A DNA stretch of 64,000 bases from NCBI GenBank assembly GCA_016858145.1, contig JAEHOE010000025.1:1092939-1156938 (forward strand), given 5' to 3'. Origin of the DNA: Edaphochlamys debaryana (taxonomy: Eukaryota > Chlorophyta > Chlorophyceae > Chlamydomonadales). Of the stretch, positions 44,990 through 64,000 are shown one piece after another (the first letter of the stretch is position 1; every line of letters begins with the position of its first letter). The notes beneath the pieces are model-generated. The model was not told the DNA's origin. It worked only from the letters and a program-made list of their open reading frames with translations, and did no database searches. A program made the translations under genes and the position numbers.

Positions 44990-45626
44990 CGCGGCTGAGG
45001 AGAGGGGGCAGGACTAAACAGATATGGATCTAAGTAAGGAATGGGGTTGAGGAAAAGGGTACAAATAGGTGCTGATCTTTAGATTAAAGGTTAAAAGGCG
45101 CAACACGTGAGGCAGGCCAATGCTGCCCTCGTGTGATGTTCTCATACACTAGATGGACCTTTTGCTCTGAGGCTGGCTGCGATCACAACATAATGTTGGC
45201 CTGAGGTTTGCGGACAAGCAAGGGCCTGCTCTAGTCATCATGTGCCAGGGCCTGCACTCGTCATGTGTGCTCTATTCTATCCTAAGCTGATGGCTGGTTG
45301 TAGTCTGCACTTTCCACAAGTAGCTGAGCTGAGCTGTGCTGGACAGGAGACATTGTCATGTTCATATGCTATATGTGCTGTAGATTCAATCCTGTAACGA
45401 GAAGAGTGTTCCTCACTTGTTCTTTGCCTGTCCCCAGCTTCCATGCTTCCTAGCTGTCTCCCCACAAACTTGATACAGGGGGTAACTCTCTGGAAGCGCT
45501 ATCTTTTTTAACATACAATTGCTATTCTGAACCAGTGCTTCAAGTCCTATCTTTCACCAGGGTCGGCTTGAACTCACTTGTAGATCTGAAAGACACAGCA
45601 GCTACCAACTGTCAGCATCCAGGGCG
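44990..45626. other. Lower-GC intergenic stretch before the satellite
   Basis: Noticeably more AT-rich than the rest, with no open frame of interest and no recognised RNA gene. Confidence 0.45.
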
Positions 45627-46713
45627 GGTGTGGAGTGTGGTGGGAGCAGGCAGTGGAGCATGGTGGACTCACACAGCTGGCAGCCTGAACGCTGCAGGAC
45701 TGCTCTGCTGAAAACGATTACTATGCTGGCAGGGACTGGGGGGCAGCAGGAGCCAGCTTGCAGGCATCCTGACCCGTGACCGTGAGGGGGGTGGGGTGGT
45801 GGTGGGTGGGTGTGGAGTGTGGTGGGAGCAGGCAGTGGAGCATGGTGGACTCACACAGCTGGCAGCCTAAACGCTGCAGGACTGCTCTGCTGAAAACGAT
45901 TACTATGCTGGCAGGGACTGGGGGGCAGCAGGAGCCAGCTTGCAGGCATCCTGACCCGTGACCGTGAGGGGGGTGGGGTGGTGGTGGGTGGGTGTGGAGT
46001 GTGGTGGGAGCAGGCAGTGGAGCATGGTGGACTCACACAGCTGGCAGCCTGAACGCTGCAGGACTGCTCTGCTGAAAACGATTACTATGCTGGCAGGGAC
46101 TGGGGGGCAGCAGGAGCCAGCTTGCAGGCATCCTGACCCGTGACCGTGAGGGGGGTGGGGTGGTGGTGGGTGGGTGTGGAGTGTGGTGGGAGCAGGCAGT
46201 GGAGCATGGTGGACTCACACAGCTGGCAGCCTGAACGCTGCAGGACTGCTCTGCTGAAAACGATTACTATGCTGGCAGGGACTGGGGGGCAGCAGGAGCC
46301 AGCTTGCAGGCATCCTGACCCGTGACCGTGAGGGGGGTGGGGTGGTGGTGGGTGGGTGTGGAGTGTGGTGGGAGCAGGCAGTGGAGCATGGTGGACTCAC
46401 ACAGCTGGCAGCTTGAACGCTGCAGGACTGCTCTGCTGAAAACGATTACTATGCTGGCAGGGACTGGGGGGCAGCAGGAGCCAGCTTGCAGGCATCCTGA
46501 CCCGTGACCGTGAGGGGGGTGGGGTGGTGGTGGGTGGGTGTGGAGTGTGGTGGGAGCAGGCAGTGGAGCATGGTGGACTCACACAGCTGGCAGCCTGAAC
46601 GCTGCAGGACTGCTCTGCTGAAAACGATTACTATGCTGGCAGGGACTGGGGGGCAGCAGGAGCCAGCTTGCAGGCATCCTGACCCGTGACCGTGAGGGGG
46701 GTGGGGTGGTGGT
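45627..46713. repeat. 182-bp satellite array, left block (about 6 units)
   Basis: Near-identical units start at GGGTGTGGAGTGTGGTGGG and contain AAAACGATTACTATGCTGGC. Spacing is 182 bases, with rare substitutions (GCCTGAACG, GCCTAAACG or GCTTGAACG). The same unit resumes at 63291 on the other side of the transposon, so this is one array cut by insertion. The 61-residue frames on both strands repeat with the unit and are not genes. Confidence 0.95.
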
Positions 46714-46751
46714 CCCTATGGCACTACTTGAGTCCGTAATGGGGGGGTAGA
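46714..46751 (+). repeat. Left terminal inverted repeat of the transposon
   Basis: 38 bases identical to the reverse complement of the right end. Starts CCCTATGGCACTACTTGAG and continues through GTCCGTAAT and seven G. Confidence 0.95.
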
Positions 46752-46755
46752 TCAC

Positions 46756-47180
46756 ACACACACATTACGGACCCCCCCCCGTAACGGTCTCTGATGTGGC
46801 TACGGAGTTGAGTCCATAACGGAACCGTAGGGGGTGTACCATCCGTAACGGATCCGAGTCCATTACCAACCCCCCCGTAGGCTTCATACCGTCCGTAAAG
46901 GACCAGTCCATTACCTACCCCCCCGTAGCTGCACACCATCCGTAAGGGACCCGCGTCCGTTACCCCCCCCCCCATAGGCTTCAGACCATCCGTAATGGAC
47001 CCGCGTCCGTCACCTACCCCCCGTAGGCTTCATAGCATCCGTCAAGAACCCCCATCCGTTACGCACCCCCCCGTAGGCTTCATAGCAACCGTCAAGGACC
47101 CGCGTCTGTCACGTACCCCCCCGCAGGCTTCATAGCATCCGTCATGGACCCCCGTCCGTCACGTACCCCCCCATCAGCCC
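46756..47180. repeat. Left subterminal repeat array (about 7 units of 55-62 bp)
   Basis: Degenerate units combine ACCCCCCCGTAGGCTTCATA, (A)CATCCGTAA or CATCCGTCAA, and GGACCCGCGTCCGTTAC. The CCGTAA core also occurs in the terminal repeat and in the right subterminal array, so it may be a transposase-binding site. Confidence 0.85.
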
Positions 47181-47217
47181 CCAATGCCACCTCCACCAAC
47201 CCCGCTGCCTGCTCCTG

Positions 47218-50050
47218 CTAGCGGTCACCCCTGCCGGGTCTGTCGCCGCGGCCATTGCCCCGGCCGCCAGGGCCTATGGCTTTTGGCGGCCTGTAGGGCG
47301 GGTTGGCCTTCGTGCTGTCTGCCCTGCCTCCCGCCACGACGGCCGCCTGGGCAGGAGGCTTCTGCACGTTCCGCGGTTCCGCGGTTCCCGGCTGCTCGGG
47401 CTGTGCCGTGCCCTGTGGCGCCCCCGTGGCTTCCGCGGCCACACCTGCCGCACCCGCTCCACCGCCTCCTCTGTCTCCACCGGCTCCTCCGTCTCCACCG
47501 GCTCCACCGGCTCCTCCGTCTCCACCGGCTCCTCCCTCCTCCCTTGGCGCGACCTCGATGCTCTTGTGGTTTCGGGAGAAGGAGTCGTCTTAGTGGGGCG
47601 AAGCCATGCCATGTCAAGCCAAGCCGCCCTTCAATACCCTCCCCTGCCTCCAAGACCTCTCCAATCAAGTTCCCTCACCACCAAGGCCCCTCCCCGGCAG
47701 CAGCACTAACCAAGCCTATCCCCGAGGGCCCTGGCTTACATGCCCACCAGCTGCTCCACGCAGAACTTCACGCTGGGGCTGTACACGATGAGCATGAACT
47801 CGTTGATGCTCGCTGTAGGCAGGGGCAAGTTAGAAGTTAGTAAGCTGGGCACATCATGCAACAAGCTGGGCAAGCAAGCAAACAGCAAGTCAATTTGGTA
47901 GCACGTGTTGTAACCAACCCACCCATGCTGGTGCACTTGTTGCCACCGGCAATGTCGAACTCCTTGAAGATTGCAGCAGCCTCGTTCATGAAGAAGTAAG
48001 CCCGCGCCGCCTCCATGCTGCATGGCGGGCCGCGACCGCCGGGTAGCTTCCGACTGTATCCCCAGGGGTACACCCGTTCGTCGAAGGCGTGCGTGAACTG
48101 CGCGGGTGGCTTGAAGGTCGTGGCCACCGCCACCACCGCCTCCACCTCGCTGTCAGTCACGGCACAAGCCGCCGCCGCAGCTGCGGGCTGCTCAGCCGCC
48201 CCCCCGCTCCCCGCGTTCGTCTTCCGCCGCTTGGGCAGCGGCCTGCTGGGGCCGGCTGCAGCCGCGTCGACAGCGGAAGCAGCAGAGGCGTCCTCAGCGG
48301 CCCTCGCCGCCTTCTTCGCCCTCTTCTCCAGGATCTTCTTGATGAGGGGGAACACTGCGAGGAATAGAGGGCAGCACACCGGCACAACAACATTAGGACA
48401 AGGCAGGGCTCTCCATCAGCTTAAGAAGCCAAAACCTGGAAGCTTCACGTCCCCCCCCAACTTAAAACAGCCCTGCATCTATCCCCCACCACCACCACCC
48501 CCACCTACGTCTGCTCCCTTGGATGTTCTGCATCACGTTGCTGATCTTGTCGTTGAGGAGGTCGCCCAGCGCCCTGACCTGGCTTAAGGTCAGGTTGGCC
48601 ACGTGGTTTGTGGCGCTCTTATCGCCCGTGTAGTTGATCCACGCCTTGAGGATCGACCGGACGTAGCTGACATACAGAACGTGCATGTCCATGCCGTTGA
48701 CGACTACCTGGCCAATATCAGCGCTGCGCCCCTTGTATACATCCGCCCACTGCAGCCCGCAGCGGACGAACCTGCATGGACGGGAGGGTATAAGCCACTG
48801 GCTTGAGAAACACGAGTTGTGGATTGCATGGGCAAGCGGGGTGTGCTGGTTGACTTCGCCGGTTTCGGGAATTTGCCAGCCCAGCCAGCCCAGCCAAGCC
48901 CAGCCAAGCCCAGCCGGCAGGCTCACATTCGGGTCATGACGAGCGCCACGCCGTACACCCGCACCAGGCTCGCGTGGTTTATCTGGAGCCCCAGCTTGTT
49001 GAAGACCTCCTCGAATGGCTTGCCCAACTCCTTGCGCAGGGTTTCCTGCGCCTCGCTGAGCTTTACCTCGCCCTTCTCGCTGCTCTTGGCCTTGGCGCTC
49101 GGCCTGCTTTGGTCGAGGGAATGGGCACACGGGGGTGTTGTAATTACGACTCCTGGCTCACGCGTACGCATTTATGCAGAGACCAGCCCCTGACACATTC
49201 ATGCCGAGACCAGGCCCTGACGCCCGCCCCAGATGCACAGTCCCCTTGCACCCGTCCCCAGACGCCCGTCCCCAGATGCCCTGTCCCCTTGCGCCCATCC
49301 ACAGATGCCCATCCCCAGGCGCCCGTCCCCAGACACTTACGCCCATCCCCGACACACCTCGAGCTCTTGGTCTTGCCGCCCGACTCCGGCGTCAGGCTTG
49401 TCTCCCCCAACACCGCGACGATTGCTGACGCAATGTAGTGCCCGAGCACGTCACCTCCCATTGCCTGCACCATCATGCTCTGCAAGCCAGGCACATTGGC
49501 AGCGAGGGAAATCGACGACTTCCAGAGGTCGTCGCAGCTGTCCCATATGGGACTGGTCTCCACAGTCAGCACCAAGCGCTGCACGGCGCCCTTAGTCTGC
49601 TGGAGCTTGCTGCGCAGCGCCTCTGGAAGCCCGCGATACCCGATGCCGCGCAACTCCTCGCGAAGCTCCTCGCTGTACTCAGCGTATGGATCCTCCTCCT
49701 CCCCTTCAACATCACCTGCAACACCGGCGGGACAGCCAGACGGTCAGCGGTGTCATGGCAAGTGCTTGCTTCCCGGTCAAGCGTCTGGGCGGGCCTTCCA
49801 GGGCTCCCCGCTGCCCAGTCCTATCCCTAGAAGTTATTAACGTCCCAGAGAACTACATATACATCAGCGGGTCGGCATCACAAGCCTGCACCAGAGCCCC
49901 GCCGCTCGAATCACAGAGCTCACCTGGCAGCTGCGGACCTTCTCCCTCTATTCCGCTGTGATGCTGCTCCTCCCTCTCCACACACTCCTCCGCCTCTGCC
50001 ACGTCATCTGTAGTTGAAGGCTGAGCCTCGACTTCTCCTATACCGGCCAT
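47218..50050 (-). CDS. Transposon accessory protein with nuclear signal, about 600 aa, function unknown
   Basis: Exons: 50050-49924, 49715-49358, 49103-48927, 48771-48509, 48354-47923, 47812-47740 and a last exon in about 47640-47218. It begins MAGIGEVEAQPSTTDD and has an acidic first exon. A mostly helical body follows (ELREELRGIGYRG, LRKELGKPFEEVFNKLGL, LSQVRALGDLLNDKISNV). A basic patch PLPKRRKTN looks like a nuclear localisation signal. The last exon is ambiguous because all three minus frames stay open: one gives an acidic EEPVETEEPVE tail ending at 47274, one an Arg-rich tail, one an RGG-like tail ending at 47218. The phase of the preceding exon favours one of the first two. It may correspond functionally to TnpA-type DNA-binding proteins of CACTA elements, which is inference only. 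Confidence 0.6.
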
Positions 50051-50394
50051 GTCTGCCAACGCTTATGTTAGATGTATGGCATTCGCGCGGTAACGGACAG
50101 GGAGATAGTGGACAGGAAGACAGTGGATAGTGGATAGCGGACTGCGGTGGTTTGTGGCGCAGGAGACAGGATCAATCGACCATGGCAATGGGGGGCATCT
50201 CCGTGGCATGCGCCGCCCAGCCAAGGTACGCACAGACCCCAAGCCGTTTGTAATGTAGATACTTTCCCCAGTGCTTCACTAGCGCCATGTCGCGCGCGTA
50301 CGCGCGACACTCTCCTTACCCTGCCCACCAACCTGCACGCCACATCCTCCTTGCACTTACTCTCACTGCCCTGCTAATCGCGTCTGCGTCTTTC

Positions 50395-53300
50395 ATGGGA
50401 CGACAACGTAAGCGCAAAGCCCACGATGACAGTGGTTGTGGCATCGGCGCTGTCGAGAGCGTGGCTGGCAATGGAAATGCCGATGGTATTGGGCCCCTGG
50501 GCTCGCCTGTTCCTCGGCACCGAGCGGTACAGGACATTCCTCTACTGGAACCTGCTGAGGCCTACTTTCTGGACCGGCACGAGGCCATAGCCCCAGGCGA
50601 CGGAGCATTGTCTTCGCCAAGCACCAGTGGCCGCGGCGTACAGCATCAGGCAGCAACTCCACTGCTACTCAGGCCCTCTCCCATTCCCAGCCTCAGCCCA
50701 TCTCTCCTTCGGCGTCTCTCCAATGACTCCGCAGGGGGCACAGATCCTGGTGGCCCTTCCCAACACGACCAAGATCAGGGTGGCGGCCTACACCCAGGCC
50801 CGCACTCGCAAGACGTCACGCCAGCCGCCCCCCCTCCTGCTGGTGCAGCCCCCCTGGGACCCCACCCCATTCCCCCCGCCGGGCCTGCACTTGACGAAAC
50901 GGAGCTAGCGGAGTGGGGCATAGACGAAGCAGAGCCTGAGCCGGGGGAGGTTGGAGCAGCAATCCCTCCGGTCACTCAACCGCCTGCTGCTGACGCACTA
51001 GCAGCTGCAGCTGCAGCACGCAGTGGGGGTGTTGGCGACGTTGACCCCGTCATCCCAAGCCATGGCGGGGGCGGCATTGGCGGCGTCGAGAACTTCACCG
51101 GTTGGGACGGGGGGTCTAGGCTTTTCAATTGGGCCAGGGAGCAAGAGCGGGGGGCGGGGGACAGAGAAGCCTCTTTTCAGGGGGGCGAGGAATGTGCATG
51201 CCGCTGATCCCGGTATCCGTCCTTCCCTATCCCACCCATTTTGCGCAGCTTCATCTGGCTTGTTCGCCCGGTGCCCTGGCAATGGCTGTGATGGCGGAAA
51301 GCCTCGCCGCCGTGCGCAGCGCCTTCAGTACCTCGAGCTCCCAACTGGAGATGCGGATGTTACACGCCTAGTCACCCGTGTCCTATACCAGGCCATCCTG
51401 CAGAAGGAGTGCAGCCCTGGCGCGACCGAGACCTCAGTGGCGCGCTTTCTCAAGAGCATCCGGGAATCCTTTGCGGGTCCCTTTGCGAGTGAGGTGCAGA
51501 AGCATGCTGCCAAGTACCTGCCCACCACGTTCAAGCAGGTGTGTTGGCGTAGGCTGGGGAGCAAGGGGCTCAGTGGGTTTGTCAGGTGGTTGGCGGGTGG
51601 GTTTGGCGGGTGGAGGGTTGCGGTTCCCTTGCGGTCCTACACGTTGCGGTCCACTGCAGGTACTCACCATGCTGGAGGACATTGCTGGAGTGAAGTGGCC
51701 GGTCATCTGGCGATACCCCATGTGCGAGTGTGGCTTCGTGTATCGCGGAGAGCACGCCAAGGCGAAGGCCTGTCCGGCCCTCTCGCCAGGCACCAAGTCC
51801 AAGCGCTGCAACAAGCCCATGGACCCATCACGCTATATGCTCTACAACTCCATCAGGCAGTGGCTCCAAAGCATCTACAGCAACAAGGTGACCGCCTCTC
51901 AGTTTGGGGCATGGAAGGAACGCCTGGAGGCGCAACACCGGACACAGCCCCACTCGGACTGCATGTTTGACATCGGCGATGGGGCAGCCATCGCCGACCT
52001 CTTCGCCAAGCAGCCTAAGTTTAAGACTGAAAGGCGCAACGTCATCTTCGTCCTCATCACGGACCCGTTCATTGTAAGTGCTGAATCCGGCGGGGGGTGT
52101 GGGGCAGGAGGGGCTGGTGCGTGGGGCTGGTGGAGCTGGTGGGGCTCAGGGGCTTGTGGGTTGCTTGGGGCACTTCGGGCACCTGGGATGCTTGTGTGCC
52201 TTGCATTCCTTATATGACTGGGTGTCCTTGCCCTTGCCCCGCCTTATAAAGGTCCCCTCCGACGAATCGCAACGGTCAAGCACTCCATGGTACCTGGTGG
52301 CCGTCAATGCCCCTCAGGAGAGTCGATTTGAGCTCGGTTACTCATCCGTGCTCGCCATCATTGGCGGCAACATCAAGTACCCGGGAGACAAGTGTGCGCC
52401 TCCAATGGACCCTAACCACGTCCTCGCCCTCATCTTAGACGAGCTTCGGTTCCTGGAGGAGGAGGGTGTCCTGCTGCAGGACGCCTCACGTGGCAACGAG
52501 ACGTTCAGGTGAGGATCCAGGCACCAGTGACTGCTACTACTACTGCTACCTCCGCTGTTACTGCTACTACTGCTACTAACGCCACGCATTCAATCCCTCC
52601 CCCCTCCCCAGGTGCTATGCCACCCTCCTGGGCATGGTATCAGACTACCGTGGGCTACAGAAGCACGTGGGCGTCAAGTTCTCTCCTGCCCTGTGGGCAT
52701 GCCTCAAGTGCTGGCAGCCAGGCTTCAAGTGTGGCGGCAAGACGGTCTATACCGACCACTTTCGCTTCCTTCCTACCAGCCACCCTCTCTTTGGCGCTCT
52801 CAAGGCCAACTTCACCAGCCGTGATCCCGAGGGCCAGGGCTGGGGCCGTCAACAAGAGCGTCAACAAGAGCGGCCAGCAGACGGCACTGACAACGAGGAC
52901 AATTGGGTTGAAGAAGATGAGGATGCGGGTGGTGATGGAGCGGCGGACGCAGCAGCGCCAGTTGTGGCTCAATCATGGAGGCTGGCCGGGAACACTAACC
53001 CCTTCAAACGGCCCCGGCAACGGGGGGCAGAGGAGATCCGCCGGGGCATGAACGGCCCACCAGCAGCAAGTGAGCCCAACCTCCCTCCCCTCAACGCTAC
53101 CTGGAGCCGTGTAGCAACCCCCCGTTCGCGTGATCAGCCCCAGGTGTCCTCGCCTGTTTACAACTCACCATCCTTTGACCCGGTACTGTCGTGGAACTAC
53201 GACGCCATGCACACCCTCGCCAGCGTGATTAAGGATACCATCGTACTGACTCTCCAGAACCTGCGTGAGCGGAGCCCCGCCATTACTGCATACGACAATG

Positions 53301-55470
53301 CAAACAACCTGACCATCACACGTAAGGAAGGGGGCTGGGGGCTGGGGGCTGGGGGCTGGGGGCTGGGGGCTGGGGGCTGGGGGCTGGGGGCTGGGGGCTG
53401 GGGGCTGGGGGCTGGGGGCTGGGGGCTGGGGGCTGGGGGCTGGGGGCTGGGGGCTGGGGGCTGGGGGCTGGGGGCTGGGGGCTGGGGGCTGGGGGCTGGG
53501 GGCTGGGGGCTGGGGGCTGGGGGCTGGGGGCTGGGGGCTGGGGGCTGGGGGCTGGGGGCTGGGGGCTGGGGGCTGGGGGCTGGGGGCTGGGGGCTGGGGG
53601 CTGGGGGCTGGGGGCTGGGGGCTGGGGGCTGGGGGCTGGGGGCTGGGGGCTGGGGGCTGGGGGCTGGGGGCTGGGGGCTGGGGGCTGGGGGCTGGGGGCT
53701 GGGGGCTGGGGGCTGGGGGCTGGGGGCTGGGGGCTGGGGGCTGGGGGCTGGGGGCTGGGGGCTGGGGGCTGGGGGCTGGGGGCTGGGGGCTGGGGGCTGG
53801 GGGCTGGGGGCTGGGGGCTGGGGGCTGGGGGCTGGGGGCTGGGGGCTGGGGGCTGGGGGCTGGGGGCTGGGGGGCTGGGGGCGGGGGGCTGGGTCTGAGC
53901 ACCGTCTTCCCCATCCCACAGCTTTCCCACCTGACGTGATTGCCAAGTTCCGGGACGCACTGCTGGAGATTGCCAAGATCGATCCAGGGGCAAAGCGTCT
54001 TGCCCGCCTGACCTCCGCTGGAAAGAAGGCCAAGTCGCATACATTCTTCCTGCTGGCGGGGCCATACGGGTCATATGCCGTCGCGAGCGCGGGGCTCAGT
54101 CCTGAAGTGGAGGAAACGCTCATCGCCCTTCTCCAGGTGTCGTGTGACCTGTGGGACAAGATTCCGTGCCGAGACAGGCTTCCAGCCCTTAAGGCACGGG
54201 TCGCAACCGCATTGTGCCTCGTGGAGACCTACCTGGGTGCAGTGCAGCTTGACATCAAGCTGCACAACTGCATCCACCTGGTGGACGGCATAGCCAACTT
54301 CGGTGGGCCTGGGGGGGGGGGGGGGGCGGGGCCTTGGGTTTTGGGTCAGTTGCTCGGGGGCCTTGGGGTTTGGGTGGAGGCCTAGGGGGCTCGGGGGCCA
54401 TCGTTGTGCTCTTCCCCATCCCTTTTCCTACGCCCATATCTCCTTATACAGGGCCCCTTTACTGCACTGCCATGTTCAAGGCTGAGCACTTATGGGGAGT
54501 GCTGGGCCGGTGGGCACACAGCAAGCGCTACATGGAGGCCTCCATGTTCTACTCGGCCCTCGACAGGCAGGTCTGCCTTGCACTGCGGCTGGAGTACGAG
54601 GCCACGCAGGCCGACGCGGAAGGTGGCGGAGGGGAGGGCATGGGCAGTGAGGCCGATCCCGAGGCCGAGGTCGATGGTGACAGGGAGGGTGAGGCTGAGG
54701 CCAGGGGTGAGAGCGAGGGCTACGCTGAGGGCGGGAGCGAGGGCAACAGTGATGAGGGTGGGAGCGAGGGCGAGGGCAATGAGGGTGGGAGCGAGGGCGA
54801 GGTCGAGGACGAGGGGGGGCTGCGCGATGTCGAGCGTGTGGCCGCCTCTGAAGAGGAGGACGCTAACTGCGACGACCTGGTCGACATGTACGACGAGAGA
54901 GCCTACTTCTGCCGTACACTGACTGTTGTCCCCATCGGGGACGATGAGGAGCGACGGGCGCTGCCGGAGATGACCCTGTCGAAGAAGAAGCAAATGTCGC
55001 AGCTCGATGCGGCATATGAACGGTGGGACATGGACAGTTCGGTGGGTGGGGATGCGACGGTCAAAGTCCTGAAGGGAGTGAGGGTGGGGCGTGTGAAGCT
55101 GTCCGCTGGGTCCTGGTTTCTCTGCCGCCCTGACACGTCGGGTGAGCTTTGGTTCGGCAAGGTGGAAAACGTAATCAAGCACGTGGGACGTGACGGGTAT
55201 GCAGAGGCACTGGTGATGGCCAAATGGTACAAAGCCGAGTCAAAGCCTGACCCCCTGCTCCACTGCCCAGTGATCCCCATGGAGGCGAAATCACACGCAG
55301 ACGGGCCATGGTTCTTGCCGAGAGCAATTGTGCCCTGGGTGTGCTTTGCACAGCCGCACCCACACAACGAGAAGCGAGCCGCTGCAAAGCGGCGACAAGT
55401 CGTGCTCGCAAGGCACTGGCACGTTCTCCGCAACTTCAAGAGCCTCCACCTGCGGTGGCGACGATGGTAG
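50395..55470 (+). CDS. tnp2-like CACTA transposase (about 1289 aa)
   Basis: Exons: 50395-51193, 51249-51538, 51660-52073, 52252-52508, 52612-53321, 53922-54302 and 54452-55470; the first donor is weak. An upstream in-frame ATG at 50287 would add a hydrophobic stretch, so I prefer [13 protein letters not shown]. Order of parts: Pro/Ser/Gly-rich head with SRLFNWARE; a Cys cluster (ARCPGNGC, later PMCECGFVY); the core with [52 protein letters not shown] and [18 protein letters not shown] followed by CLKCW; then [32 protein letters not shown], which matches the DUF4218 pattern of plant CACTA transposases. After an acidic EGGSEGE repeat comes a [17 protein letters not shown] region resembling the DUF4216-type C-terminus. 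Family matches are by eye. No internal stops were found. Confidence 0.75.
53329..53895 (+). repeat. (GGGGGCT)n heptamer array, about 77 copies, in a transposase intron
   Basis: Almost pure GGGGGCT repeats between the donor at 53322 and the acceptor at 53921. Three units equal 21 bases, so each frame is open and encodes a seven-residue GGWGLGA repeat in the transposase frame. Splicing removes it and restores phase (ITPFPPDV). G-runs on one strand could form quadruplexes. Confidence 0.95.
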
Positions 55471-55722
55471 TGGCGGTGGCTGCGGTGGCTGCGGTGGTGG
55501 CCTTGGTGGTAGTAGATGTAGTGTGCCGGTGCGGTGGTTGGGACGTTGGCGGCTGCGGTGGCTGCGGTGGTGGCCCTGGTGGTTGGAGGTGTAGCGTGCC
55601 GGTGCGGTGGCGGTCCTGCGGTGCGGTGGCGGCGGTGGTGGCAGATGCAGTCAGATTGGCGGGGACGTTGACTGGATGGTCTTTACGGCCTTGCAAGAGT
55701 GCAAACGAGATGAACGCCGCTC
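55471..55722. repeat. GGT/GCG-rich tandem duplications after the transposase stop
   Basis: Imperfect repeats built on GTGCCGGTGCGGTGG and GGCTGCGGTGG, with two longer similar copies of about 73 bases. No coding signal. May be part of the transcript's 3' region. Confidence 0.6.
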
Positions 55723-57020
55723 GGATGACTGGTACCCCTTCCCAGCCCGCTGGCAAAGCCCTGTCCTGCCGACTGTCCTAGATGGTCAGCCCCTTTGCGC
55801 GAGAGCCCCGCCGCTCGGATGACTGGTACCCCTTCCCAGCCCGCTGGCAAAGCCCTGTCCTGCCGACTGTCCTAGATGGTCAGCCCCTTTGCGCGAGGGC
55901 CCCGCCGCTTGGATGACTGGTACCCCTTCCCAGCCCGCTGGCAAAGCCCTGTCCTGCCGACTGTCCTAGATGGTCAGCCCCTTTGCGCGAGAGCCCCGCC
56001 GCTTGGATGACTGGTACCCCTTCCCAGCCCGCTGGCAAAGCCCTGTCCTGCCGACTGTCCTAGATGGTCAGCCCCTTTGCGTGAGAGCCCCGCCGCTCGG
56101 ATGACTGGTACCCCTTCCCAGCCCGCTGGCAAAGCCCTGTCCTGCCGACTGTCCTAGATGGTCAGCCCCTTTGCGCGAGAGCCCCGCCGCTTGGATGACT
56201 GGTACCCCTTCCCAGCCCGCTGGCAAAGCCCTGTCCTGCCGACTGTCCTAGATGGTCAGCCCCTTTGCGCGAGAGCCCCGCCGCTCGGATGACTGGTACC
56301 CCTTCCCAGCCCGCTGGCAAAGCCCTGTCCTGCCGACTGTCCTAGATGGTCAGCCCCTTTGCGCGAGAGCCCCGCCGCTTGGATGACTGGTACCCCTTCC
56401 CAGCCCGCTGGCAAAGCCCTGTCCTGCCGACTGTCCTAGATGGTCAGCCCCTTTGCGCGAGAGCCCCGCCGCTCGGATGACTGGTACCCCTTCCCAGCCC
56501 GCTGGCAAAGCCCTGTCCTGCCGACTGTCCTAGATGGTCAGCCCCTTTGCGCGAGAGCCCCGCCACTTGGATGACTGGTACCCCTTCCCAGCCCGCTGGC
56601 AAAGCCCTGTCCTGCCGACTGTCCTAGATGGTCAGCCCCTTTGCGCGAGAGCCCCGCCGCTCGGATGACTGGTACCCCTTCCCAGCCCGCTGGCAAAGCC
56701 CTGTCCTGCCGACTGTCCTAGATGGTCAGCCCCTTTGCGCGAGAGCCCCGCCGCTTGGATGACTGGTACCCCTTCCCAGCCCGCTGGCAAAGCCCTGTCC
56801 TGCCGACTGTCCTAGATGGTCAGCCCCTTTGCGCGAGAGCCCCGCCGCTCGGATGACTGGTACCCCTTCCCAGCCCGCTGGCAAAGCCCTGTCCTGCCGA
56901 CTGTCCTAGATGGTCAGCCCCTTTGCGCGAGAGCCCCGCCGCTTGGATGACTGGTACCCCTTCCCAGCCCGCTGGCAAAGCCCTGTCCTGCCGACTGTCC
57001 TAGATGGTCAGCCCCTTTGC
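55723..57020. repeat. 94-bp tandem array, 14 units, with dimeric higher-order pattern
   Basis: Units start GGATGACTGGTACCCCTTCC and contain CCTGTCCTGCCGACTGTCC. The base before GGAT alternates between CTC and CTT contexts in nearly every successive unit, so the array appears to have grown as 188-bp dimers. Only single substitutions separate the units. Confidence 0.95.
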
Positions 57021-57448
57021 GCGGGGGCAGATGGGAACGATCGAAGGGGGCAGCACTAATGTTGAGCCCGTTACAGTTCTGCTCGAATCTCTGTCAAGCC
57101 GCTCAATCCACTTCTCAAGCAAAAGGGCATCACCAGCCCGCAGCCGTCCTGTCCGCCACCCTGCATGCTGACACCCTTGTGACAGCAGACCATCTGGTTC
57201 TATGCATACAGTTCCAGTGCCCCACATAAGGAAACGGTGCACCCAACCGTCAAGGGCCGTCGCTCAAATCTCTGCCATACCGCAGCCAGCGCACTTGCAT
57301 CCCTCTAACTAGACCTCGTTGCTGCTTGGCATCACCAGCCCGCAGCCAGACCAAACACACACAGTTACTGCCATCCTGTCCACCACCCTGCATGCTGACA
57401 CCCTTGCGCCAGCGGACCATATGGTGCTATGCATACGGTTACTGCTCT
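57021..57448. other. Non-coding stretch with a direct duplication
   Basis: Segments near 57131-57215 and 57334-57440 share CACCAGCCCGCAGCC, CACCCTGCATGCTGACACCC and CTATGCATAC in the same order, with small insertions. No gene recognised. Confidence 0.6.
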
Positions 57449-58505
57449 TTACACCAGGAAGCGGTACCGCTTCGCCTTTAGCCACCTGGCCTGCTGCTTG
57501 GTGGCCACGATGAGGTTGCTGGCGTTGTTGTTGAAGCGGTTGCCGTCGATGTGGAAGACGTTGTAACCGGGGCGGTGCAGGAGAGAGCCGTTGCCCAGCC
57601 AGGCGTGCGCCACAATCATGTCAAGGCGGGCCGCCTCACCGCGGATCCTCACCATGACGCGGCTGTGGTGGCCACGGTGAAGAAGGGCGTGTCCCCTCGG
57701 GCCCCACACCTCACCCGTGGGCGAGACACGGTATGCAATGTCACGGTAGGAGGGACGGAGCACGGGGGGAACACGGAGGCGCGTGGACGCGGAGGGCGGA
57801 GCGGAGGGCGGAGCGGAGGGCGGAGGGGCGGGGGCCAGAGCGGGCGAGGGGCCCTCAGTGGTGGACGAGGCGGCTGGACCCAGCAGAGGGTGTGCGGGGA
57901 TGGGTGCGGGCGGTGGAGCCATCAGCAGGGTGAGGTTCGCAGTGGGCATGGGCTCCATGGAGCTGGGAACAGGCACGGGCGCCCACGGGAACGGCTTGAA
58001 CTCGAGGCGCATCTTCTGGCGGATGAAATTGGCCCTCATGATGCGCTTCAGGTCCTTGCACTTCTGCATGTCCATGACGTAGCGCCCCGAGCCCTTCTTA
58101 TTCTCGAAGTAAGAGGGGGTGGTGTTGATGGCGTCACGTACAATCCAGGAGGGGATGCACGGAGGCAGGAGGACTCCAGGGATGCCGCTCAGATAGGCGC
58201 GGATAGCCGTCTTGGCCTCCTGGAAATTCTTCTCAGACCTGAAGCGGGAATCCTCGCAAAGGTAGTTGATGCCCTTGAAGGTACGAGGGGGACAGCTGTG
58301 GGGGGAAGGGGGGCGGGGGTGAGGTGCGAGGGTGGCGAGGAGGCGAGTTCGGTAATAGCGTGCCGTGGAGGCTAGCGGCCTTCCCAGCTCAAAATACACC
58401 CTGAATTCACTGCACACCCTGCACTCACTTAGTCTCATCTGTGGGGACGGTCTGCAGCTCCGTTACCAGGTCGCCGAAAGCTGAAGAGCGAGGAGTCGAC
58501 GACAT
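57449..58505 (-). CDS. HNH endonuclease encoded by the transposon (307 aa)
   Basis: Exons 58505-58429 and 58295-57449 join in phase; the start is MSSTPRSSAFGDLVTELQ. The N-terminal half (GINYLCEDSRFRSEKNF, AIRAYLSGIPGVLLPP, a Lys/Arg-rich KCKDLKRIMRANFIRQKMR) is unrecognised. A Pro/Ala/Ser linker separates it from the C-terminal domain. That domain reads YRVSPTGEVWGPRG, then MVRIRGEAARLDMIVAHAWLG, then VFHIDGNRFNNNASNLIVA (H274 onward). This is the pattern of NUMOD/HNH_3 nucleases from phages and homing introns, with the metal-binding His and both Asn positions kept. It would nick or cut DNA. A TGTAA overlaps the stop codon. Confidence 0.85.
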
Positions 58506-58940
58506 AGCGGGCACGGAGGGCTTGGCGTATTGGGGGCGATGGGGGGCGTGTGTGTCTGGCGCTGCTTCAACACATGCACGAGCAGTTGCTTGTGGGACTC
58601 ACGCTGAAGTGCGGCAACTTAAATTTCGCGGGCTTGCATGGACTTTGTGTACGGCGCCCCAGGGCGGACAAGGCAGGAGGAAAGGTGGGGGGGGGGGTGG
58701 GGTGGTAACGGGGTGCGGGGAGGCTACGGGGGGCACAAGGGTGCCTTGCACCCTCCGTAACGGGGGGGGGTAACGGGGCGCGGGAGGTCTACGGGGGGTG
58801 CAAGGCTGCGCTGCACCCCCCATTACGGAGGGTGCAAGGAAGCCTTGCACCCTCCGTAATGGGGTCGCCGGTACGGCACAGGGACTGGTCGCCTCTCTAA
58901 AGCACCCTACTGCACATAGGCTACCCAATATCATAGCAAC
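58506..58940. promoter_or_regulatory. Divergent upstream region of the HNH and JmjC genes
   Basis: Separates two oppositely oriented starts. It holds several copies of CCCTCCGTAAC/T and GGGTGCAAGG, matching the CCGTAA core of the element ends, plus one perfect palindrome. It could bind the element's own DNA-binding protein. Confidence 0.5.
58822..58860. repeat. Perfect palindrome, 18-base arms, 3-base loop
   Basis: ATTACGGAGGGTGCAAGG, then AAG, then the exact complement. The outer part ATTACGGA is the same core found in the terminal inverted repeats. Confidence 0.9.
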
Positions 58941-61096
58941 ATGTCAAAGGACTACTGCTTCGTGCAGTGCGGCGCACAGAAGTGCGGGCGGCGGGCCGCG
59001 TACACAATGTGCGCTTGCCCGGACCTCTGCCTACAGGACCCCAACAACATCAGGTCGAGTGTTAAGCTGTTCTGCAAAGACCACATAGGCCAACATGTAG
59101 TGGAGAAGCTGTGCCGGAAGCCCACCAGCAAGCGGATGCTGGCGTCGTTTCTTGACGACGACGCTCCCAACGCCGACCTGGACCCTGTCCTTGCCAGCGA
59201 TTGCTGCATCGAGCAGTGGGAGGCCCGCTACGGGTCTCACGCAGCGAAAATCGTCCGGCACATCAAGCTGCCGCCAGGCCGGGAGGACGAGGCGCGCCAC
59301 CGGGAGGAGTCATACGCACTGGTCGCTGCTGTGGGGACTATGCTGGGACAGGGCAAGGGCAGGCACTCAGTAGACGAGCTGCGTAGGGAGAGCATCATCA
59401 GGCGAGAGAACAATCAGAGCGAGGGTGGCGAGTGGACGTGCGCTTTGTGCACGGCCAAGTGTGCGCTTGTAGTGTTCGCACAGCCCAGCAAGGAGGCGAT
59501 TGGGTATCAGGAGGAGGGCTCGGAGTGGTGGTGCTGGGCGTGCGCTCCCGTTGTGGCAGCCCAGAGAGCGGAGGAGGAGGGCTTCTGCCTGCAGCGCTTC
59601 TGCATTGCCGAGAAGGAAGAGTTGGATGCGCTCGAGTGCGTAACGCGGGGAGGGGGGGGGGGGGCGGGGCGGGTGAGAGGGGAATGAAGAGGGGACGAAG
59701 GGGAAGGAATGGGTACGTGCCTGACTCGTGCCTACACTGCCCGTCCCCTGAGTACAGGAAGGTGCTCAACGCCTACCACATCGGTAACATCCCCTTCAAG
59801 CCGACCAACTTGGCTAATACGCCACCAAGGTGGGCGGGACACTGTGGTCAGGGGAAAGAGTAGAGCGCAGGATTGGGGGTGGGAGGGAACAGTGAGGGCA
59901 TGCTAGGCTGAAGAGGCCAAGCTGCTTCTGTGCTTGCGGTTCCTGTCCTGTAGCGTCTACCCTGTCCTGTCTGAGCTGGGCGCTGTCGAGGAGCTACAAT
60001 GCCTGCTACCTGAGCGTGGAGCGCCACGGTGGACGCCAGAGATGATGGAGGCGGAGATGACGCTGTGGGGCAACTGTGCGTTGGCGAGGCTTGTGAAGGA
60101 GGAGAAGGACCCAGAGTTCAGGTGTGTTGGAAGGTTGGATTGGGAAGTTCAGGAGCCTCTGGCCCAACCTTGCTGACCACACCCATGCTTTGCCTGGCTC
60201 TTGTGCTCGGTAGTACTACCAACCTGGGTGTCCTCCCCGCCCCCTTCCCTCCAACGACCTTCTCCGTCTGCTCCCGCGCCCCCCACCCCACCCCCACCCC
60301 CCCGTGTCCCTCTTGCAGTGCGCTGGTTGAGGAGGGAGGAGCCGCGGCAGTGGGGAGCTGCCTGGCGGAGGACTCGAATTGCAAGATCTACCGCAGCTTC
60401 AACTACGACTGCCCGCCGCAGAAGCGAGAGAAGTCCATCCTGTACTGGGTGATCAAGACGCTGTGGGACGAGGTGGAGTCTGGCGGGGGCGCCCCGGGGA
60501 GGGACGTGTCGCCTTGGTCGATGATCGTGCTCATAATTGTTGGGCGGGGAGGAGTGACCTTCTCGGCTTTCCACATAGATCGTGCGGGGGCAAAGAATGT
60601 CGCGTTTGCAGCATGGCACGTGCCTCCTGGTGCGGTGCTTGCACGCTGGGTGTTCATCAGCCCTGCAATAATCTCAAAATTCAACGAGTGGGTGGTGGGG
60701 CTGAAGGGGAAGAAGGGAGGGGCTAAGAAGGTGAAGTGGGAGCGCCGCAACCGCACACCCTGGGCGCCTACTCCGACCTGGGTGATGCAGCCTCACCTCA
60801 CACAGGAGGGCATTGACGCATGTGTGGAGGAGTTCGGGGAGGAGCATGTGCGGGTGGTGGACCAGAAGCACGCTGACCTGGTGGAAGTGCCCCCGGGGTG
60901 GGCCCACCAGGTCACCAACGTCAACAGCAATGTCAAGGTGGCGTGGGAGGTGGCCGACCTAAGGATGGCAGGGCCCCTCTTCTGGCTCCCTCGTTTCCTG
61001 GCCACTCAGGGCCTCATTTCATACTATGGATTCGACTATACGTACCTCGAAAAACTGGTGACCAAAAATGTAGTGGCGTTGGCGAGGGTCCTGTGA
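58941..61096 (+). CDS. JmjC-fold dioxygenase with Cys-rich N-terminus, encoded by the transposon (570 aa)
   Basis: Exons 58941-59635, 59758-59829, 59954-60121 and 60319-61096 join in phase. The N-terminal 60 residues (CFVQCGAQKCGRR, YTMCACPDLC, FCKDHIGQHVVEKLC) and a second cluster (WTCALCTAKC, WWCWAC, GFCLQRFC) look like zinc-binding modules. The C-terminal 200 residues carry the JmjC signature: VTFSAFHIDRAGAKNVAFAA with the iron-binding HxD (H397, D399), a WVFISP strand, then QKHADLVEVPPGWAHQVTNV with the third iron ligand (H508) followed by VKVAWEV. These are the hallmarks of Fe(II)/2-oxoglutarate histone demethylases and related hydroxylases. The substrate cannot be told from sequence. 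A TGTAA lies 223 bases beyond the stop. Confidence 0.85.
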
Positions 61097-61729
61097 TTAC
61101 GTGGGGGGCCTCAGGGGCTTTCGGTGCATTAGGCACGCTTCTTCCGGCCAACATATGGTGGTTGGACGCCTGTTAACATTCGGATGTCTAGCGTGGCTTT
61201 GGTGTGGGAAATGAGGATGATGGGAGCAGCGGAAGAACTAACGTGCGTGGCATGACAAGGAATGGTTACGCTTAAGGGCCCGTGGTAGTGCATTAAGCTG
61301 AACACGCTATGCCTGGAGTGTAAGGCAGGGCACATAAACAATGAAGGGCTGTGATGGGCTGTGGTGAGCAGGAGCAGGAGAGTGGACACATGTATAGGGG
61401 CACCGACAGGACACAGGCTTTAACATCATTAGTGCTGCATCCATACGTCCGTGTCTTGCCAACATCCTGCAATCCTGCGCCCCGCCCAAGCCGCTCCAGC
61501 CCGCCCCAGACCAGATCTTGCTGGCCCTCAACGCTTCCCAAGCCACTCATTGACGTCCATAATGCCATGCCACCACAAAACATGCCTTGGCTCCGAAAAG
61601 TTCCTGCGCCAAATGCCAACAACCAAAAGGCGCCCGGGGCCCTCTTGGCCCATCCATCCATCCCATCCTCCAAGTGCAAGTACCTCTTGCGCTCAGGACA
61701 AGCTTCAGCTGCTATTATGCATATGGCTA
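61097..61729. other. Non-coding region between convergent transposon genes
   Basis: Contains the poly(A) signal candidate of the JmjC gene. Otherwise no motif or exon recognised. Confidence 0.45.
61319..61323 (+). terminator. TGTAA poly(A) signal candidate of the JmjC gene
   Basis: Sequence GAGTGTAAGG, 223 bases after the stop codon, in the usual distance range for such signals in chlorophytes. Confidence 0.4.
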
Positions 61730-62613
61730 CTATGCCATGGCCTCGGCCTCAGCCTCGGCCTCGCCATCGGCGGGGTCAACCTGCAGCACGGCGCCCTGCA
61801 CGGCAGCGCCCTCCTCCATGGGGGGGGCGTCCACCCCTCCCTCGGGGTACCAGATGCCCAGGTGCGAGGGCAGGCGGTCCAGGACGACGGGGTTGGTGAG
61901 GGCGTTGGTGAAGATGGGAGCGTAGGTCAGGGACACGCGCTCTACCCAGATGAGCCCCTCCACGGTGCTGGTGGTGGGCCAGGGGACCGAGCGGGGTTCG
62001 GGGTGCAGGAACGCGTGACTGCGGTTCTCGCTTAGCAGGCCCCAGGCCCTGGTGTGGGGGCAGAGAATGGGGGTGCAGCGCTCGAGGTCGTGGTCAGACA
62101 GCTCGACAAAGGGCAGCTCGAGGCGCAGCCGGGACACCAGGTCCTCGTAGCTGATCTCGCAGAAGAAGCAGTCCGGGTCGACGTGGCCGCCTGCGTACAG
62201 GGTGCCGATGGTGACGTTGCCGGCGGGAATCCAGGCCTGTGAGCGGATGGTAAGGGAGGGGGGGGGGAGATCTGTAGGATCGGAAGGTCTCTACTGCCTT
62301 TGCTGGCCCTTTTGGAGACCCCATGAGGGCCAGACGCAACGTATGGCTGGCCAGCGCTGAACAAAGATAGGCGACTGACCTTGACCGGGTGAACGCCCTG
62401 GGCGTTCTTGGGAATCAGGGAGGCGGCGTAAACGTCCTGAATCCTGAATAGGGGCGTGATGGGGCCGCTCCGGCGGAGGACAGAACCAATGGAGCAGCGG
62501 GCAGGCTGTCGCAGCTTGAGGCCGTGGTTGCCTCCCAGGGGAGTGCCGGGGCGGATCATCCAGTGAGTATCCGTGCCTGCGGCAATAACGTGGGAGTCCA
62601 CCTCGTGTGCCAT
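61730..62613 (-). CDS. Unrecognised 246-aa transposon protein
   Basis: Two exons, 62613-62380 and 62236-61730, join in phase with good splice sites. It starts MAHEVDSHVIAAGTDTHWMI and ends in a Glu/Ala repeat (DGEAEAEAEAMA). Visible features are a Cys pair in DPDCFFCEISYEDLV, a LELPFVELSDHDLERCTPI segment, and WVERVSLTYAPIFTNALTNP. No membrane span, signal peptide or familiar active site is seen. A capsid-like or DNA-binding role cannot be judged. It may have a further upstream exon, because the ATG follows closely on CCCAGAGAA. Confidence 0.6.
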
Positions 62614-63080
62614 TTCTCTGGGGGAGAAGGCAAGGAGAGTGGGAAAGCGGCCGCGGGGTTGGGGGCTGTGGGGGATAAGGCCTTCCGATGCTGGCTTAAA
62701 AGCTCAGGGAGGCAGAGATAACGGGGGGGTCCGTGAGCAGGAGCAACCGCGGGCTAGGGGCTAGGGAGGCTGTGGAACGGGCGTGCTCCTCTACAGCGAG
62801 CCAGAGCAGGCAGCGATGGCTGCAAGCCAGTGCAGCCAGGCAACAACGGAGAGCACTCAAGAGCAAACAAAGCCCGCGCTTACTTGAATTACTTGGACGC
62901 GAGCGACGCGCGAGGGGCAGGAGCAGGGTGCAGCGTTGGGGATACGCGTCGAAGACGTGATGTGTGGTGATAACAACCTGGCAGCGGCAACTTGAGCTAT
63001 AAGAAGGCGCCCAGGCGAGTTCCAGAAGTGTACGAGCACATGAAGGCGTCTGTCGAGGACGTCGCGAAAGGCGCGAAAGG
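62614..63080. other. Upstream region of the 246-aa gene inside the right end of the element
   Basis: No gene recognised. Merges into the right subterminal repeats. Confidence 0.45.
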
Positions 63081-63084
63081 CGCG

Positions 63085-63240
63085 AAGAGGGGCTACGGAG
63101 GGAAGGGCTACGGTGGGCAACGGTGGGGTGGCCGTAAAGGGGGGGGGGGCTACGATGGGCTACGGTGGGGTGGCCGTAAAGGGGGGGGGGGCTACGATGG
63201 GCTACGGTGGGGTGGCCGTAAAGGGGGGGGGGGGTTACGG
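63085..63240. repeat. Right subterminal repeat array (3 units of about 43-44 bp)
   Basis: Units of the type GCTACGGTGGGGTGGCCGTAAAGGGG followed by a G run and CTACGATGG. They share the CCGTAA core with the left array and the terminal repeat but have a different unit length. Confidence 0.85.
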
Positions 63241-63252
63241 AGGACAAGGGAC

Positions 63253-63290
63253 TCTACCCCCCCATTACGGACTCAAGTAGTGCCATAGGG
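63253..63290 (-). repeat. Right terminal inverted repeat of the transposon
   Basis: Exact reverse complement of the left 38 bases, ending CTCAAGTAGTGCCATAGGG, followed by the GGT target duplication and the satellite. Confidence 0.95.
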
Positions 63291-64000
63291 GGTGGGTGGG
63301 TGTGGAGTGTGGTGGGAGCAGGCAGTGGAGCATGGTGGACTCACACAGCTGGCAGCCTGAACGCTGCAGGACTGCTCTGCTGAAAACGATTACTATGCTG
63401 GCAGGGACTGGGGGGCAGCAGGAGCCAGCTTGCAGGCATCCTGACCCGTGACCGTGAGGGGGGTGGGGTGGTGGTGGGTGGGTGTGGAGTGTGGTGGGAG
63501 CAGGCAGTGGAGCATGGTGGACTCACACAGCTGGCAGCCTAAACGCTGCAGGACTGCTCTGCTGAAAACGATTACTATGCTGGCAGGGACTGGGGGGCAG
63601 CAGGAGCCAGCTTGCAGGCATCCTGACCCGTGACCGTGAGGGGGGGTGGGGTGGTGGTGGGTGGGTGTGGAGTGTGGTGGGAGCAGGCAGTGGAGCATGG
63701 TGGACTCACACAGCTGGCAGCCTGAACGCTGCAGGACTGCTCTGCTGAAAACGATTACTATGCTGGCAGGGACTGGGGGGCAGCAGGAGCCAGCTTGCAG
63801 GCATCCTGACCCGTGACCGTGAGGGGGGGTGGGGTGGTGGTGGGTGGGTGTGGAGTGTGGTGGGAGCAGGCAGTGGAGCATGGTGGACTCACACAGCTGG
63901 CAGCCTGAACGCTGCAGGACTGCTCTGCTGAAAACGATTACTATGCTGGCAGGGACTGGGGGGCAGCAGGAGCCAGCTTGCAGGCATCCTGACCCGTGAC
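63291..64000. repeat. 182-bp satellite array, right block (about 3.9 units, runs off the window)
   Basis: Same unit and orientation as the left block, in register with it once the transposon and one GGT are removed. Two units have one extra G in the GAGGGGGG run. Confidence 0.95.

Follow-up and report, generated by a model that had tools for sequence, protein, structure and literature searches.

A multi-copy EnSpm-group transposon lineage carrying a conserved JmjC-domain gene in the green alga Edaphochlamys debaryana

The DNA analysed here, a stretch of 64,000 nucleotides from the genome of the green alga Edaphochlamys debaryana (the window; contig C25, positions 1092939-1156938, running to the contig end, GC content 66%), contains a complete transposon of 16,577 bp. 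Judged from sequence comparisons, this element belongs to a real, multi-copy lineage of DNA transposons of the EnSpm group which has non-CACTA ends and which appears to have carried, over a long period, a block of genes encoding a JmjC-domain protein, an HNH-domain protein and a protein denoted G5. The JmjC gene is under purifying selection that is stronger than that on the transposase gene, and the fact that it has been kept hints at a possible defence of the element against inactivation. The explanation that we prefer, and consider rather probable, is that an EnSpm/CACTA-group transposon of the cut-and-paste type, which has been active recently, is potentially autonomous and carries an enlarged set of genes, would use its JmjC protein against host silencing.

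Selection was estimated from the ratio of replacement to synonymous substitution rates (Ka/Ks) between the window element and two subfamily copies located on contigs C173 and C62. The JmjC gene gave the lowest ratios among the usable genes, 0.12 for C173 and 0.18 for C62, and the corresponding values were 0.37 and 0.38 for G5, 0.54 and 0.56 for the transposase and 0.82 and 0.80 for a further gene, G1. The JmjC comparison comprised 17 synonymous and 7 replacement changes for C173 (Fisher 6.6e-7) and 16 and 10, respectively, for C62 (Fisher 2.4e-5), and the constraint on the JmjC and transposase genes differed with a p value of 0.003. Changes in the HNH gene were too few for a ratio (1 synonymous and 3 replacement in one comparison, 3 and 2 in the other), and comparisons with the nearest copies also yielded few changes with some ratios above 1. 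Since an accessory gene is more constrained than the transposase, the element needs it, and this constraint is, we infer, best explained by an anti-silencing role.

As far as gene content and order indicate, the gene set is not a recent capture, because a second family of elements carries the transposase, HNH, JmjC and G5 genes in the same order and orientation as in the window. It is represented by copies on C11 (14,725 bp) and C173 (C173b; 14,658 bp), with a further copy on C393 that is 98-99% identical. The sequences start with CCCTAT[AG]GG, their ends are CCCTATAGGG (left) and CCCTATGGGACTA (right), and 3-bp duplications, CCT and CTT, were present in both of the two copies. Relative to the window, amino acid identities range from 39 to 88% for different segments of the transposase; they amount to 57-58% for JmjC exon 4, 34% for the N-terminal part and 49% for the joined JmjC protein, to 57-58% and 33-35% for the C-terminus and N-terminal part of the HNH protein, and to 50-60% for G5. 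The families are separated by a synonymous divergence (dS) of 1.4-2.0 in the transposase exons, 1.4 in JmjC and 1.0-1.1 in HNH, as expected from shared descent, and the replacement divergence (dN) lies well under it (0.34-0.36 for JmjC and 0.41 for HNH). A tblastn search of family 2 with G1 gave no match at E 0.01; its place there is occupied by same-strand open frames, which are at most candidate homologues of G1.

The features of the element in the window are as follows.
46714..63290, unstranded: complete transposon, 16,577 bp, defined by its terminal inverted repeats, target-site duplication, exact empty site and copies
46711..46713, unstranded: left target-site duplication, GGT
63291..63293, unstranded: right target-site duplication, GGT
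46714..46751, plus strand: left 38-bp terminal inverted repeat, starting CCCTATGGCACTACTTG
63253..63290, minus strand: right 38-bp terminal inverted repeat, equal to the left one
46837..47172, plus strand: left subterminal array, 6.8 copies of CCGTNA-rich units of about 50 bp
63105..63233, unstranded: right subterminal array, 3.1 copies of 42-bp units
47736..50050, minus strand: G1, 6 exons, 477 amino acids, without a Pfam match, weakly constrained (Ka/Ks about 0.8)
50395..55470, plus strand: tnp2-type transposase, 7 exons, 1289 amino acids, exon 1/2 junction uncertain (Transposase_21, 3.5e-12)
53330..53893, plus strand: near-perfect 7-bp minisatellite GGGGGCT, about 80 units, within transposase intron 5
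55715..57023, unstranded: 94-bp tandem array, 13.9 units
57449..58505, minus strand: HNH-domain protein, 2 exons, 307 amino acids, atypical active-site region (HNH_3, 1.6e-6; phrog_959, 6.5e-10)
58941..61096, plus strand: JmjC-domain protein, 4 exons, 570 amino acids, with HxD (H397, D399), H508 and, by inspection, two conserved Cys-rich regions
61730..62613, minus strand: G5, 2 exons, 246 amino acids, no known domain, conserved in related families

The terminal inverted repeats are equal at 38 of 38 bases, the first mismatch being at base 39. When the flanks are joined and one GGT is removed, they reproduce a unit of the adjoining 182-bp satellite over 80 of 80 bases, and this 80-mer occurs six times in the window. 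A tandem-repeat artefact as the origin of the apparent element is ruled out because the empty site is exact. The first 500 bases of the element contain 17 occurrences of the motif CCGTNA, counted on both strands; the internal 500-base bins contain 0-2 each, apart from a single bin with 5, and the two final bins contain 4 and 3. The termini, CCCTAT..ATAGGG, are unlike the CAC..GTG of CACTA elements; all 11 of the family-1 copies that were read start with CCCTATGG and finish with CCATAGGG, and the string CACTA was found solely within the terminal inverted repeat, from base 9. The 182-bp satellite flanks the element at 45622-46713 and at 63291-64000, where it reaches the end of the contig. Upstream, at 37847-38315, lies a 14-bp tandem array of 33.6 units, and an Rfam scan of the window gave no match.

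When the five genes were spliced in silico, all reading frames were open and all introns were of the GT-AG type. The spliced transposase matches Transposase_21 with 46.4 bits, over the cut-off of 28.6 bits, and the G1 and G5 proteins gave no Pfam match. In the transposase, the sequence ACLKC, a CxxC motif, lies between VSDYRG and FKAEHLWG and is conserved in family 2, as are the putative D, D and E residues, the catalytic D/D/E having been assigned by inspection; thus the C(2)C motif of the CMCT group is present between the second catalytic D and E. A candidate for the H(3-4)H motif of this group, HFRFLPTSH, of uncertain spacing relative to the published alignment, was seen by eye. Copies C62 and C173 contain a stop at the exon 1/2 junction, which leaves that junction uncertain. 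A search of the same genome with PF02992 gave no match, and neither did its controls, so that this result carries no information. Transposase residues 265-1000 found nothing at E 0.001 among 5.8 billion proteins, with the best 8000 candidates scored, and an AlphaFold model of G5 exon 2 was weak, with a predicted local distance difference test score (pLDDT) of 37.5. By its tnp2-type DDE transposase and 3-bp duplication, the element can be assigned to the EnSpm/CACTA group at the level of sequence. A preliminary description of this DNA had reported perfect 38-base inverted ends, a 3-base target duplication, subterminal arrays and five splice-consistent genes including a tnp2-like transposase, all of which were borne out. 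It had also called the transposon CACTA-like: the element is intact with a tnp2-type transposase, but because it ends in CCCTATGG..CCATAGGG and not in CAC..GTG, that term applies by the transposase only.

Searches of the 141.9-Mb, 502-contig assembly of the same genome score only the best candidates and, therefore, copy numbers are lower bounds. Left ends were found at at least 28 places and right ends at at least 30, some of them partial. Matches to G1 exon 2, HNH exon 2, JmjC exon 4 and G5 exon 2, together with the ends, were assembled into a hand-made list of clusters comprising family-1-like matches, with divergent matches and rows of repeats only or terminal inverted repeats only left out. 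This yielded at least 43 clusters, 16 of them with both ends and eight with the four genes G1, HNH, JmjC and G5, whole or in part, in an unchanged order; C444, with a fragmentary G1, falls outside the eight. For the 11 copies that were read, namely the window element and ten others, exact 3-bp duplications occur in eight and all are different (GGT, ACG, CAC, GCG, CCT, CAG, AGA and AGT), and in three (C444, C190 and C171) the 3-bp flanks do not match. For C444 and C190, either the left or the right flank matches those of other copies (L016-L019), which may result either from ectopic recombination between copies or from misassembly. Seven copies were compared with the window over three array-free sections; C7, C190, C368, C444 and C65 are 99.1-99.8% identical in each section and C62 and C173 are 96.1-98.0% identical. 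Under the gene models of the window, all five frames are intact in C65 and each of the other nine fetched copies has one or more genes disrupted or absent: C62 is broken solely at the uncertain transposase junction, and C173 at that junction and by a change in transposase length that is not a multiple of three.

Some loci carry only part of the gene set. Internal deletions have removed the HNH gene and most or all of the JmjC gene from C171 and C69, and only the HNH sequence from C230; these are the three copies of this kind that were read, the short two-ended copies on C27, C15, C18 and C338 lying outside that reading. G5 is carried on C9, at C62 (60500-69900) and on C89, and the latter two also retain a 64-amino acid JmjC N-terminus, with no match to the other genes of the set in one 9.4-kb stretch of each. 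These two loci are read as probable deletion derivatives because only G5 and the JmjC N-terminus were matched. One G5-bearing derivative (L039, 195-6941) contains about 6.7 kb of tandem repeats that are open in three frames. A distant locus on C25 (891000-899500) combines an HNH gene with a 29-amino acid JmjC N-terminal match (E 0.002), and on C59 a JmjC fragment, 45-48% identical, stands alone, with none of the set's other genes in a stretch of 12.5 kb. The preliminary description had proposed that several full copies with the same gene order and different 3-base duplications would support its interpretation; such copies exist, the second family extends the result, and the JmjC, HNH and 246-amino acid G5 genes belong to the lineage and not to one copy. 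Copies without JmjC and/or HNH, which it had named as contrary evidence, also exist, but all three examples that were read represent internally deleted elements.

The assignment of the JmjC protein depends on matches near the Pfam cut-off of 24 bits. Exon 4 scored 24.5 bits in a six-frame search of the genome, in which 14 control genomes gave no JmjC match, and family-2 sequences exceed the cut-off on C11 (26.1-27.2 bits) and C69 (27.1 bits). Residues H397, D399 and H508, which we take from general JmjC biochemistry to be the Fe(II) triad, HxD/E..H, are kept in both families, and the HxD and distal His sit in the best-conserved part of the protein. Conserved Cys-rich regions, seen by inspection, precede the domain, and the region PPGWAHQVTN presumably resembles KDM3-type histone demethylases. 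Weak cupin-type Pfam matches (GPI and Polysacc_synt_C) occur alongside JmjC; TET/JBP was absent among Pfam matches up to E 1, a range in which the HMMER filters drop weak matches so that very remote kin are possible. Wider searches detected no relatives: residues 240-570 gave nothing at E 0.001 against 5.8 billion proteins (5072 candidates), the two-family alignment gave nothing at E 1 against the same set (7999 scored), and a PDB sequence search with the JmjC profile gave only two unrelated matches at E 1.3. Viral contigs yielded no confirmed relative of the JmjC or HNH proteins.

Several observations weigh against the preferred explanation. The spliced window protein scores 22.2 bits (2e-4) and direct scans of exon 4 score 22.7-23.5 bits, all under the cut-off; the joined C173b protein scores 17.6 bits, and the Pfam match covers only the second half of the domain. 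Counted from the first His, position +18 is occupied by Pro in the window protein and by Lys in two host JmjC exons and family 2. A single-sequence AlphaFold model of exon 4 was poor (pLDDT 42.2, predicted template modelling score 0.28), and of 238 Foldseek matches to this model none reached E 0.001 and none of the 50 listed bore a JmjC title, a result which cannot decide the fold because the model is too weak. JmjC frames are broken in C368, C444 and C190, and copies lacking the gene persist. Because C62 resembles C173, the two Ka/Ks values are not independent. Between the families, G5 exon 2 (61730-62236) has a dS of just 0.4, unlike the 1.0-2.0 of the other genes. Moreover, the JmjC sequence of C393 is spread over more than one frame, C11 ends differently, and C173b has a short G5 match and an HNH gene broken up by a long repeat, so that some of the family-2 genes may not be intact. 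As the structural model is poor and without a JmjC match, the call rests on sequence near the cut-off; for the JmjC-fold protein of the preliminary description, the borderline sequence match and the conserved HxD..H stand but structural agreement was not obtained.

The HNH protein matches HNH_3 with 28.1 bits, over the cut-off of 24.8, in addition to phrog_959. Its phage relatives are weak, an annotated HNH homing endonuclease at E 0.008 and a hypothetical protein at E 0.007, and a PDB sequence search found no relative, its three matches being at E 0.14 or worse. The active-site stretch reads VFHIDGN in the window and VNHIDGN and VNHKDGN in the phage proteins; family 2 has VYNINGD and the distant C25 locus VYNIDGN, with His replaced by Asn in both. 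Because the residue preceding the active-site His position differs from the phage proteins in the window, family 2 and the C25 locus, and the His is Asn in the relatives, the protein should not simply be termed a nuclease; it may rather be derived from HNH proteins and bind DNA, and its ability to cut is doubtful. The window and C173 show no substitutions over 818 bp (57341-58158), covering most of HNH exon 2, where about 19 would be expected, and the rest of that section is about 2.4% different; likewise, the window and C62 show none over 57341-58132. This could reflect recombination between copies or a homing-like conversion. Of the HNH nuclease first described, then, the family assignment holds but the active site looks eroded, and of the first interpretation overall, the intact five-gene tnp2-type transposon with lineage-wide genes is supported, the CACTA-like label, beyond the transposase, and the plain nuclease are not supported as first worded, and the demethylase-type activity is a putative one.

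In the mechanism that we envisage, the tnp2 transposase would recognise the terminal and subterminal CCGTNA repeats and cut and insert the element, while the element-made JmjC protein would oppose host silencing of the element's copies; the simplest way would be to remove a repressive methyl mark from histones, and interference of a non-catalytic kind is another. The remaining products, namely the HNH-derived protein, G1 and G5, could contribute to DNA recognition or complex assembly. G1, on which constraint is weakest, may follow the terminal repeats as they change, much as VANC proteins are linked to tandem repeats that diverge. A more specific form of this proposal, which we hold tentatively, is that the element encodes a histone demethylase within a conserved self-protection module, consisting of the JmjC protein, the HNH-derived DNA-binding protein and G5, that would be targeted to the element's own copies via the subterminal repeats and would constitute a histone-level counterpart of the fungal TET/JBP transposons. 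Somewhat doubtful, in our view, is a form in which the JmjC protein opposes silencing without demethylation, by binding silent chromatin and displacing silencing factors in the manner of Epe1 of fission yeast, a proposed precedent in the excerpted text of PMC7192584. The atypical residues near HxD, including position +18, favour such a role and the Cys-rich regions could be binding modules, but retention of the HxD and distal His in two families suggests that the iron site matters.

An unlikely alternative to anti-silencing is that the protein is a 2-oxoglutarate oxygenase or another cupin acting on the transposase, or on another protein, and required for transposition as such, with no connection to silencing. 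Its constraint, exceeding that of the transposase, is compatible with this, as are the weak cupin-type matches, and not all JmjC proteins are histone demethylases; nevertheless, no Pfam family matches better than JmjC, which passes the cut-off in two copies of family 2, and the Cys-rich regions look, by inspection only, like chromatin-reader modules. For the HNH gene, spread between copies as a homing-type selfish gene, through break-induced gene conversion, would account for the substitution-free tract and has a parallel in the KolobokP endonucleases, which, in the excerpted text of PMC9587614, include a His-Me finger nuclease encoded on the complementary strand. We judge this rather improbable given the altered active site, and ordinary recombination between copies, suggested by those with mismatched flanks, leaves the same trace. 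The idea that a single element picked up host genes by chance, and that these hitchhike in it without a role, might be argued from the C69 derivative, which lacks HNH and JmjC yet is dispersed with its own matching duplication, AGT, and from the isolated C59 fragment (45% identical). It is disfavoured, and very improbable indeed, because family 2 carries the same block, with the same genes and order at a dS of 1.0-2.0; moreover, the JmjC frame is kept at a Ka/Ks of 0.12-0.18, and the closer divergent matches to JmjC exon 4 (C173, C69, C11, C202, C211 and C393), leaving out the weak ones on C123 (E 0.12) and C6 (E 0.6), adjoin HNH and/or G5.

Transposons with enzymes directed against DNA methylation are known already. 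If the JmjC protein of the present lineage opposes silencing, an arms race over histone marks would become testable with one gene and many near-identical copies, in an alga that is probably culturable. No DNA transposon with a JmjC gene was found among the matches listed in the open-licence PMC literature. With EnSpm/CACTA elements of the CMCT group, the window element shares a tnp2-type transposase with CxxC between the putative second D and E, terminal inverted repeats, subterminal repeats and 3-bp duplications; it differs in its CCCTAT..ATAGGG ends and in the extra conserved HNH, JmjC and G5 genes.

Among systems with accessory genes, fungal transposons that include EnSpm and Plavaka carry TET/JBP genes, and SET-domain and VANDAL cases are also cited (Kojima 2025, PMC12730594; 'JmjC' is absent from its main text). 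The TET-bearing EnSpm and Plavaka elements resemble the window element in combining a transposon of the same group with an oxygenase-type gene and a proposed counter-silencing role; unlike them, it encodes a protein that matches JmjC, while TET/JBP acts on DNA bases, and its host is no known fungal case. KolobokP, as excerpted in PMC9587614, also combines a DDD/E transposase with a downstream His-Me finger (HNH-type) protein on the complementary strand, but it belongs to another superfamily with long terminal direct repeats and no JmjC is mentioned there; the window element has a tnp2 transposase and 38-bp inverted repeats. VANC is a transposon-borne, anti-silencing protein of Arabidopsis VANDAL elements (excerpts of PMC10398659) which binds noncoding regions of this MuDR-type element in a sequence-specific manner (PMC12730594, likewise excerpted). 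In both systems a transposon encodes an accessory protein and has tandem repeats that diverge rapidly; the anti-silencing role is only proposed for the window element, which, unlike VANDAL, is of the tnp2 type and carries a JmjC protein. Finally, KDM4-like JmjC genes are present in endogenised giant viruses of Amoebidium (PMC11244446, as excerpted), where a JmjC gene is similarly borne by a selfish element; in the window, the carrier is a DNA transposon and the JmjC sequence is divergent.

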